The notes below the pieces were generated by a model. It saw only the letters and a list, made by a program, of their open reading frames with translations. It did not search any database and was not told where the DNA came from. Shown here in pieces: positions 28,972 to 31,983 of a stretch of 32,086 bases of DNA; positions within the stretch are counted from its first letter, which is position 1; every line of letters starts with the position of its first letter. Origin of the DNA: Planctomycetales bacterium (GTDB taxonomy: Bacteria; Planctomycetota; Planctomycetia; Isosphaerales; Isosphaeraceae); the NCBI GenBank assembly GCA_027435495.1, contig DAHZZC010000205.1, positions 1 through 32,086 of the forward strand. The letters run 5' to 3'. Made by a program: the position numbers and the translations under genes.

Positions 28972-29943
28972 TCACCCGACGCCGCAGGCTCGTCGGGCTC
29001 GGTCGAGGACCCGGCGCGCCGTGGCCCGGGCTCGCTCGGCGGCGGCGACGCGGACTTCTTCGACCCGCCCGGGATGAGCGAGCCATTCCGCCCGGCGCTC
29101 GCGGGCCGGTGCAAATCGGGCGATCATCGCGTCGGCCAGCCGGGTCTTGACCTCGCCGTAGCCGATCCCGCCCTCCCGGTATCGGCGTTCGACCTCGGCC
29201 AGTTCGTCGGGCGTGGCGAAGAGCTTGAAGAGGTGGAACAGCGAGTCGGTCTCGGGGTTTTTCGGGGCCTCGACGGGCGTGCTGTCCGTAACGATCCGCT
29301 TGACCTTCTTCTTGATCACGGCCGGTTCGTCGAAAATCTCAATGGTGTTGCCATAACTCTTGGACATTTTCCGGCCGTCGAGTCCGGGGACGACAGCGAC
29401 CGATTCGAGGATGTGCGGCTTCGGCAGCCGGAAGACCTCCTTGCCGTTCCCGTGGACTCGATTGAACCGCTCGGCGATGTCGCGGGTGATCTCCAGGTGC
29501 TGCTTCTGGTCCTGGCCGACCGGGACGAGGTCGGCGTCGTAGAGGAGAATGTCGGCGGCCTGGAGGACCGGGTAGGCGAACAGGCCGTGCTCGGCCGAGA
29601 GGCCCTGCTCGACCTTGTCCTTGTAGCTGACGCACTTTTCCAACCAACCCATCGGCGTGACGGTCGTCAGCAGCCAGGCCAGTTCGGTTGTCTCGGGTAC
29701 GTCGGACTGGACGAAGAGCGTCGCTCGATCGGGGTCGAGGCCCAGCGAGAGCATCGTCACCATCACGTCGAACGTATAGGCGCGGAGCTGGTCGGCATCG
29801 CGGACACTGGTGAGCGCGTGGTAGTCGGCGACGAAGTAATAGGCGTCGTTCTCGCGCTGAAGGTCGATGAACTGTCGGAGCGCGCCGAAGTAATTGCCGA
29901 TATGCAGAGCGCCCGAAGGCTGGATTCCCGACAGGATGCGCAT
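28972..29943 (-). CDS. trpS: Tryptophanyl-tRNA synthetase
   Basis: MRILSGIQPSGALHIGNYFGALRQFI, YYFVADYHALT, LFVQSDVPETTELAWLLTTVTPMGWLEKCVSYKDK, GRKMSKSYGNTI. Confidence 0.97.
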   Translation of the reverse strand: MRILSGIQPSGALHIGNYFGALRQFIDLQRENDAYYFVADYHALTSVRDADQLRAYTFDVMVTMLSLGLDPDRATLFVQSDVPETTELAWLLTTVTPMGWLEKCVSYKDKVEQGLSAEHGLFAYPVLQAADILLYDADLVPVGQDQKQHLEITRDIAERFNRVHGNGKEVFRLPKPHILESVAVVPGLDGRKMSKSYGNTIEIFDEPAVIKKKVKRIVTDSTPVEAPKNPETDSLFHLFKLFATPDELAEVERRYREGGIGYGEVKTRLADAMIARFAPARERRAEWLAHPGRVEEVRVAAAERARATARRVLDRARRACGVG

Positions 29944-30196: not shown

Positions 30197-30631
30197 GTGA
30201 TCACCCGAATCTACGAGGGGAATGGGGTCCGATTCGCGTACCCCGCCGACTGGTCGGTGGAAGAGTCGGACGACGGTGAGTCGTCGACAGTGGAGGTGCT
30301 GGCACCCGGCGGCCTCGCCTTCGTGCTGGTTCGGACCGACGAGACTGGCCCCAACCCAGCCGAGGTCGCCGACGAGGTTCTGGAGGCGATGCGCGAGGAT
30401 TACCCGGACCTCGACGTCGTCCCTGCAATGGACGACATCGCCGGCCACCACGCGACCGGGTACGACCTCGAATTCTTCTCGCTCGACGTCACAAACGCGG
30501 CGACGATCCGCTGCTTCCGGACCATTGAACGGACCATCCTCATTTTCGGTCAGTGGTCCGACATCGTCGACGAGGCCCTCCCCGACCGCATCCGCAGCCT
30601 CTGGCGCTCGGTGGAGGAGATGGAGGATTGA
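30197..30631 (+). CDS. Small hypothetical protein, possibly PsbP/DUF1795-like
   Basis: Likely GTG start 30197 preceded by GGAG: VITRIYEGNGVRFAYPADWSVEESDDGESSTVEVLAPGGLAFVLVRTDETGPNPAEVADEVLEAMREDYPDLDV... ; ATG 30128 in frame is an alternative start. Confidence 0.65.
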   Translation: MITRIYEGNGVRFAYPADWSVEESDDGESSTVEVLAPGGLAFVLVRTDETGPNPAEVADEVLEAMREDYPDLDVVPAMDDIAGHHATGYDLEFFSLDVTNAATIRCFRTIERTILIFGQWSDIVDEALPDRIRSLWRSVEEMED

Positions 30632-30719: not shown

Positions 30720-31121
30720 TCAGGCCGAGCTTGGCTCCATTGCATAAGCAAGCAGGGTGCTGACGATCCGCTTGACACGATCCGAAGAGAGGATCTCTTT
30801 GAGATTCTCCCGGAACTCGTCGAAATTGTGGGAGAGGATCATTCGGTTGCTCGTCCCGTCGCGAATCTCGAGGGGATAGATCGATGGATTATGGTGGACG
30901 CTCAGGAGGAAATAGCGATAGTTCGAAAGAGTCGGGACGACGAGGTAGAGCGAATGTCGGAATTCCAACTCCGCGCCGACGCCGGTCTGGACGCTCCCTT
31001 CGACCAGGTTCTTCGTTCGCTCGCCGAGGAGAGAGGCCTGTTCCTTGAGGATGGTCAGCGGGGTGATTTCCGGCTCGACGCCGAAGTTGTCCGGCCAGAA
31101 GCTTTCATGAGGCTTGTTCAT
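30720..31121 (-). CDS. Hypothetical 133-aa protein paired with EEP-family enzyme
   Basis: MNKPHESFWPDNFGVEPEITPLTILKEQASLLGERTKNLVEGSVQTGVGAELEFRHSLYLVVPTLSNYRYFLLSVHHNPS...; start overlaps the end of the upstream gene by 17 bp. Confidence 0.75.
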   Translation of the reverse strand: MNKPHESFWPDNFGVEPEITPLTILKEQASLLGERTKNLVEGSVQTGVGAELEFRHSLYLVVPTLSNYRYFLLSVHHNPSIYPLEIRDGTSNRMILSHNFDEFRENLKEILSSDRVKRIVSTLLAYAMEPSSA

Positions 31122-31983
31122 GGCGAGTGTCCTGTGGGAGGTCCACCGTAAAGAGAATCGGAAGGTGATCGGAGACGAGCAGCTTCGAGTGCCTCTTGGT
31201 CTCACGCTGGAGGGCAATCTCTCCGGATGCGGAGAGGCCTTTTTCCAGGACCTGGAGCGATGGGCCAATGAAGGCATCGAGCAGTTCGGGGCGGATGAGG
31301 ACCTGATCGAGTGTGTGCCAGTAGATGTTCGTCCGGCCCCGCTGGCGATGATAGTAGGTACCCGGCGGCCCCTCGGACATGTCCCCCAGGCGGCTCCACA
31401 TCGGATTGTAGAAACGAGGTCTTTCGTCGAGGTTGCTGTCCACTGCCTGACGGGTCAACCCCTTCGTCATCATCGCCCCGAATCCGTTCGCGTCCACCAT
31501 TCCTTCGTCGAAGGGATTCATGTTGAAATCGCCAACCAGAATTGTCCTGCGATGTCGTGCCTTCTGCTCGGCATCGCGGAGGAATTGAGCCAGCTCGAAG
31601 CAAAGCGAACGTTGCTCCGAGGGCGAGTGATTCCTCCTCTCCGGAAAATGGATGACGGCGGTGAGGATCTCCATCATGCCCGGCAGGCGCAGGCGCCGAA
31701 CCGTCATTCGGGGATGGTCCTCGAAACGATCCAAAAATGACGCCTTGAATCGAGTGAAGATCTGGAACCTTTGGTTAGGCCCCGCGGCATAATGAAACCT
31801 TGTCTCCTCGCGGTTCAATTCATTGAGCACCAGGCCCGGTGGGACCGTACTCTCTGTCAGGAGGATCAGAGCCGCTTCATGATGCAAGGCCGTTCGGGCG
31901 ACGATCGCGGCAGGATCTTCGATCTCTCGGGGTGGCCTGAAGTTCCAGAAGAAGAATCGGGTCACGAGGAGGTCTCGCAGCAT
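31105..31983 (-). CDS. Endonuclease/exonuclease/phosphatase (EEP) superfamily protein
   Basis: FFFWNF (Asn motif), ALILLTES (Glu), RTILVGDFNMNPFDEGM (GDFN), NIYWHTLDQVLIRPEL, LLVSDHLPILFTVDL (SDH). Confidence 0.85.
   Translation of the reverse strand: MLRDLLVTRFFFWNFRPPREIEDPAAIVARTALHHEAALILLTESTVPPGLVLNELNREETRFHYAAGPNQRFQIFTRFKASFLDRFEDHPRMTVRRLRLPGMMEILTAVIHFPERRNHSPSEQRSLCFELAQFLRDAEQKARHRRTILVGDFNMNPFDEGMVDANGFGAMMTKGLTRQAVDSNLDERPRFYNPMWSRLGDMSEGPPGTYYHRQRGRTNIYWHTLDQVLIRPELLDAFIGPSLQVLEKGLSASGEIALQRETKRHSKLLVSDHLPILFTVDLPQDTRHEQAS

Follow-up and report, generated by a model that had tools for sequence, protein, structure and literature searches.

Enzymes with the EEP fold rank among the most common nucleases known, and the closest described relatives of the enzyme considered here belong to the TDP2, DNase I and Mth212/ExoIII branch of that superfamily, with which it shares the fold and the motifs N, E, H, GDxN, D and SDH. 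Unlike those enzymes, to which it is 15–17% identical, it belongs to a family that has motifs of its own and whose genes nearly always come with a small partner gene. Like type II toxin-antitoxin systems, the pair consists of two short, adjacent, overlapping and co-inherited genes, mobile and patchy in distribution, one of which is probably noxious; unlike in those systems, the enzyme gene comes first, and toxicity and neutralization are putative. We know of no EEP toxin, and of no member of this partner family, in any toxin-antitoxin class. PrrC-type anticodon nucleases are restriction-linked genes of type I hsd loci, and in two clostridial loci our pair similarly lies as an accessory nuclease inside an hsdM-hsdS-hsdR operon, but it has an EEP fold rather than one of the ABC-ATPase/HEPN type, includes a second gene and is found mostly outside hsd loci. 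Finally, the defence nucleases Nhi, Hachiman, retron Eco8 and Septu are thought to detect phage SSB, and a recent review that treats them (PMC12904381) mentions no EEP enzymes among such SSB-linked nucleases. A candidate link to SSB exists here as well, through the DDIPF or DDLPF tips of some partners; however, those systems would sense phage SSB, whereas such partners would mimic the SSB tip, and the one in our sequence does not carry it.

In the library of papers searched, we found no description of an EEP-partner pair, nor do that literature and the family libraries hold any antiphage or toxin-antitoxin system made of an EEP nuclease and a dedicated small partner. A mobile nuclease with a regulatory partner is of a known kind, but this combination of folds and this partner family appear not to be known. 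Our reading, which we consider rather probable, is that the pair forms one horizontally mobile conflict module, which most likely defends against phages or mobile elements by a logic like that of toxin-antitoxin systems. The first gene would encode an intracellular, metal-dependent EEP phosphodiesterase with DNA as its likeliest target, and the second, translationally coupled, a small enzyme-binding protein, which would either keep the enzyme in check until a replicating phage disturbs the cell or guide it to DNA that is being replicated. The sequences themselves establish conservation, pairing, co-inheritance, an intact active site, mobility, allele replacement and the presence of the pair among phage, plasmid and restriction-modification genes; we infer the nuclease activity, the physical binding, the trigger and the phenotype. 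As the pair is compact (1.3 kb), spread across phyla and carried by phages and plasmids in easily cloned forms, its function is directly testable.

Organization of the locus

The window, by which we mean the whole stretch of DNA analysed, comprises one complete contig (32 kb; G000:C205) from a planctomycete-like MAG. On its minus strand, the gene for a 292-aa EEP-superfamily phosphodiesterase resembling TDP2/DNase I-type nucleases (31105–31983) overlaps by 17 bp (31105–31121) the gene for a 133-aa partner of an undescribed family (30720–31121), which confirms the overlapping unit that an earlier note on this DNA had placed at 30720–31983. The overlap is again 17 bp in a congeneric relative (G018) and in a 3.5-kb Klebsiella plasmid. 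It implies coupled translation, as the note had held, but the fixed stoichiometry that the note also deduced does not follow from an overlap alone. The true start of the enzyme may be a GTG at 31965 rather than the ATG at 31983, because the G018 relative begins at the matching position.

The contig ends 103 bp beyond the 5′ side of the enzyme gene, and the upstream gene of this genome lies outside the available sequence. On the other side, the variable locus has its edge at a conserved plus-strand gene (30200–30631; 97% DNA identity to G018), beyond which a minus-strand gene (28972–29943) serves as a landmark of the fixed site. From its sequence we take this gene to be trpS, encoding tryptophanyl-tRNA synthetase (98% amino acid identity to G018 and 95% to a second congener, G017).

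The enzyme

The earlier assignment of the first protein to the EEP fold is sound: Pfam Exo_endo_phos (PF03372) matches it with 36 bits against a cutoff of 24.5 (E 8e-9), and its AlphaFold model (pLDDT 91) is TDP2-like. The best Foldseek matches in the PDB are to TDP2 (E 6e-11, TM 0.5–0.6), followed by Mth212/ExoIII, EEPD1, DNase I and others; the profile match to TDP2 chains is weak (E 0.001), and the likeness to TDP2 is one of predicted fold only. The motifs WN, E, GDFN and SDH, previously described as intact-looking, are present, together with VIHF. Across an alignment of 34 family members, H112, D152, N154, D226 and H273 are invariant and N14, E44 and D272 are conserved in at least 90%; W222 is also among the conserved residues, and the family signatures are GDFNMNPFDxGMV, FYNPMW, PGTYY, WxxFDQVLIRP and SDHLPI. 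The conserved VHL histidine resembles the arrangement in TDP2 and DNase I, unlike that in ExoIII. The enzyme looks catalytically intact and cytoplasmic and, since the solved structures closest to it in fold are those of TDP2, Mth212/ExoIII and DNase I, is most likely a metal-dependent phosphodiesterase acting on DNA.

The protein is a bare EEP domain that starts at the first core strand, and neither its sequence nor its model contains a secretion signal, a receptor-binding domain or a transport domain. This architecture bears on whether the pair could be an interbacterial weapon, in which a nuclease effector travels with its immunity protein as a bacteriocin or as secretion-system cargo. Such a weapon would explain the effector-first order with overlap, the ColE1-like plasmids that carry the pair and the position of one Photobacterium plasmid copy near hcp/vgrG, but the bare domain and the 3-kb plasmids, on which no lysis gene was found, make it very improbable.

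The partner protein

The earlier note had called the 133-aa protein an orphan of no recognized family. It indeed matches no family in Pfam, NCBIfam, PADLOC or PHROGs, but it is no orphan, as homologues are widespread. Its AlphaFold model (pLDDT 95) consists of a helix, five beta strands and two helices, and the alignment reveals conserved motifs, namely an N-terminal (D/N)LWP, a helix with ILxEQAxxL and a YP preceding a strand (W9, YP83). Foldseek searches of the PDB and BFVD returned no significant fold relative (E ≤ 0.001). Weak PDB profile matches to D-Ala ligase and FaRel2 were judged to be chance, and a ubiquitin-conjugating-like (UEV/RWD) fold, hinted at by scattered weak PDB matches and a shared YP motif, was not supported by TM-scores near 0.25. 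The apparent partner at L130 and L134 was set aside as probably a different protein.

Seven members of the wider partner family end in an acidic, SSB-like C-terminal tip, which reads DDIPF in L033, L094, L101 and L102, DDLPF in L110, KDIPF in L103 and EEPPF in L012. An ending of the form [DE][DE][ILVP]PF is found in only 3 of 643 gene calls on long loci, and all three are partners; the partner in the window lacks it. As a lead only, the tip hints that some partners may bind the proteins whose usual ligand is the SSB tail, an attachment that would bring the module to replication forks. One could picture a hitherto undescribed form of antiphage defence: a small protein, which in several lineages imitates the SSB tip, would hold or aim an EEP-fold DNase, so that phage hijack of the replication machinery would release or recruit the nuclease, and we regard this specific mechanism as tentative and on balance doubtful.

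Conservation and inheritance of the pair

A search with the enzyme alone yielded 43 loci, a few of them near-duplicates: 7 come from the order, 28 from other genome contigs and 8 from viral contigs. A partner homologue lies directly downstream of the enzyme at 38 of the 43, and all eight viral-contig matches carry one; at the other five, the partner is partial (one), the contig ends (one) or a different gene follows (three, in the Bacillota L045–L047). The enzyme/partner unit proposed in the earlier note is a recurrent one. Its hosts span at least seven phyla and include Planctomycetota, Acidobacteriota, Bacteroidota, Cyanobacteriota, Pseudomonadota, a deltaproteobacterium, Verrucomicrobiota and Bacillota, and in the enzyme tree members of different phyla are intermixed. 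Among 39 intact pairs, enzyme and partner tree distances are correlated (Mantel r 0.72), a value reached in none of 5000 permutations (maximum 0.36), as expected of co-inherited genes. Both genes are under purifying selection (dN/dS about 0.18 for the enzyme and about 0.45 for the partner) which, together with their joint recurrence across phyla, shows that the pairing is not due to chance. The upstream neighbours differ everywhere (aconitase, NADH dehydrogenase, a PEP-utilizing enzyme, a GalT-like protein, a hydrolase, HsdS, AbiD), so the unit consists of two genes, and a third conserved member is ruled out.

Profile comparison detected no homology between the downstream genes of L045–L047 and the partner, and the view that these Paenibacillus and Paraliobacillus genes are diverged partners was dropped for want of such support. 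In Paenibacillus, the gene that follows the enzyme (L045:5454–6200 and L046:5428–6198) has, by eye, an apparent sigma-70 region-2-like N-terminus joined to a C-terminal domain of unknown type, and is a possible alternative partner.

Partner genes also occur without an enzyme gene (L087:9976–10503 and L135:8282–8710). One of these solitary partners stands beside a GalT-like gene, the kind of gene found ahead of the full pair in L005 as well, and the other is flanked by sixA-like and purM-like genes. In the complete genome of Pseudomonas sp. KNUC1026 (L073:9762–11010) a frameshifted enzyme is followed by an intact partner, and in another finished sequence (L096:9659–11142) a frameshifted enzyme is followed by an intact, unrecognized protein of 227 aa. 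Broken enzymes with a retained partner are commoner than the reverse, although the excess is no larger than gene length and search bias predict; we did not keep this asymmetry as a sign of a toxin-antitoxin system, because the 2:1 ratio in gene length and the partner-based ascertainment can account for it.

These losses matter for the idea that the pair stabilizes plasmids and prophages, with the enzyme as nuclease toxin and the partner as proteic antitoxin, serving mainly for addiction rather than phage defence. Stabilization would suit two overlapping genes that are the sole cargo of 3-kb plasmids, that occur in filamentous and temperate phages and whose second member at times persists where the enzyme has been lost or disrupted (L087, L135, L096, L105). 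However, the loss asymmetry does not reach significance, many copies stand singly in chromosomes with no mobile element in sight, some lie within type I R-M operons, and the replacement of alleles at a fixed chromosomal site suits defence at least equally, and we therefore think addiction an unlikely main function.

Both genes are rare and patchy, occurring in 0.5–13% of genomes per clade: they were found in 6 of 45 genomes of the order, 8 of 392 of the phylum, 5 of 346 Bacteroidota, 2 of 369 of the gammaproteobacterial class and 4 of 391 of the clostridial class (among which L130 is a likely false positive), and in none of the E. coli genomes searched. A housekeeping AP endonuclease of the ExoIII/Xth type would be near-universal in its clade, and relatives of this enzyme occur in 7 of 45 order genomes; patchy, mobile and present on phages and plasmids, it does not come from a characterized housekeeping family. 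The same pattern weighs on a further explanation, that of an accessory enzyme which repairs DNA or processes nucleic acids together with a cofactor subunit, for instance one of TDP2- or ExoIII-like type that is recruited via SSB-binding proteins. The nearest folds (TDP2 and Mth212/ExoIII) and the SSB-tip-like C-terminus of several partners are what such an enzyme would have, but the patchiness, cross-phylum transfer, allelic replacement, carriage by tiny plasmids and phages and the company of AbiD and R-M genes are unlike repair genes and leave it with little probability.

Allele replacement at a fixed site

The congener G018 carries the pair at the same site, between the same neighbours. The flanks of the two genomes (trpS and the small plus-strand gene) are 96–97% identical in DNA and 98% in protein, whereas the enzyme is 66% identical in DNA and 63% in protein, and the partner 65% and 53%, with similarity falling at the stop codon of the 30200–30631 gene. 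Synonymous divergence is 0.09–0.13 in the flanks and 1.0–1.6 in the pair, about 10-fold higher. Because the synonymous divergence of the pair is so far above that of the flanks while its dN/dS is below 1, the comparison points to replacement by a distant allele rather than to fast point evolution. In G017, where the flanks show about 90% DNA identity, all that is left of the enzyme gene is a 5′ stub of ~32 codons, and there is no partner.

Genetic neighbourhoods and mobile carriers

The reading as a mobile conflict module draws on the pairing, the r of 0.72, the patchiness, the allele replacement, the R-M, AbiD and FRG company, the carriage by small plasmids and a filamentous phage, the homology of partners across branches and the catalytic residues that are invariant or nearly so. 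Against defence stand the planctomycete copies beside housekeeping genes, the negative PADLOC result, the solitary partners and the other downstream gene in L045–L047. The coupled unit of the earlier note, which considered effector/inhibitor and defence roles among others for it, is supported as a reading, with the exact role (defence, toxin-antitoxin or effector-immunity) still putative; neither outcome that the note had named against it, a partner not conserved beside EEP genes or an enzyme of a characterized housekeeping family, came about.

Most planctomycete copies lie beside housekeeping or ordinary metabolic genes and not in a defence island, and the PADLOC-DB 2.0.0 system models matched neither window protein, nor any of 34 enzyme relatives at E ≤ 1. 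In raw counts, R-M, AbiD and FRG/PDC-S15 neighbours occur at a minority of loci. In the two clostridial operons the order is hsdM-hsdS-[EEP-partner]-hsdR, and the HsdR proteins come from different families. These operons, with the pair between hsdS and hsdR, occupy L070:5784–13730 (on the same contig as L037) and L039:1–6915, and the specificity gene of L070 also bears a GIY-YIG nuclease domain. Elsewhere, viral-contig pairs adjoin terminase and portal genes (L094) or an antirepressor and a virion gene (L091).

Profile comparison (hhalign 95.5%, E 1.4e-8) identifies homologous partners in a more distant branch. Its pairs follow AbiD on two Acinetobacter plasmids, stand between an integrase and an FRG/PDC-S15 gene in Acinetobacter phages and occur on the Photobacterium conjugative plasmid near hcp/vgrG. 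Such a pair is also the only evident cargo of plasmids of 3.0–3.5 kb from Klebsiella (ColRNAI), E. coli and Edwardsiella (L101, L102, L103); in the E. coli plasmid pEC904, the reading frame of the partner is interrupted. A Vibrio filamentous phage carries a divergent enzyme, recorded as DNase_I-like, together with a partner (L104:1774–3082). In a third clostridial locus (L133:6656–12256), a Schlafen/AlbA-type (AlbA_2) gene lies two genes upstream of the pair and a weak HipA-like match downstream, and an unrecognized 436-aa gene lies 3 bp upstream of the pair.
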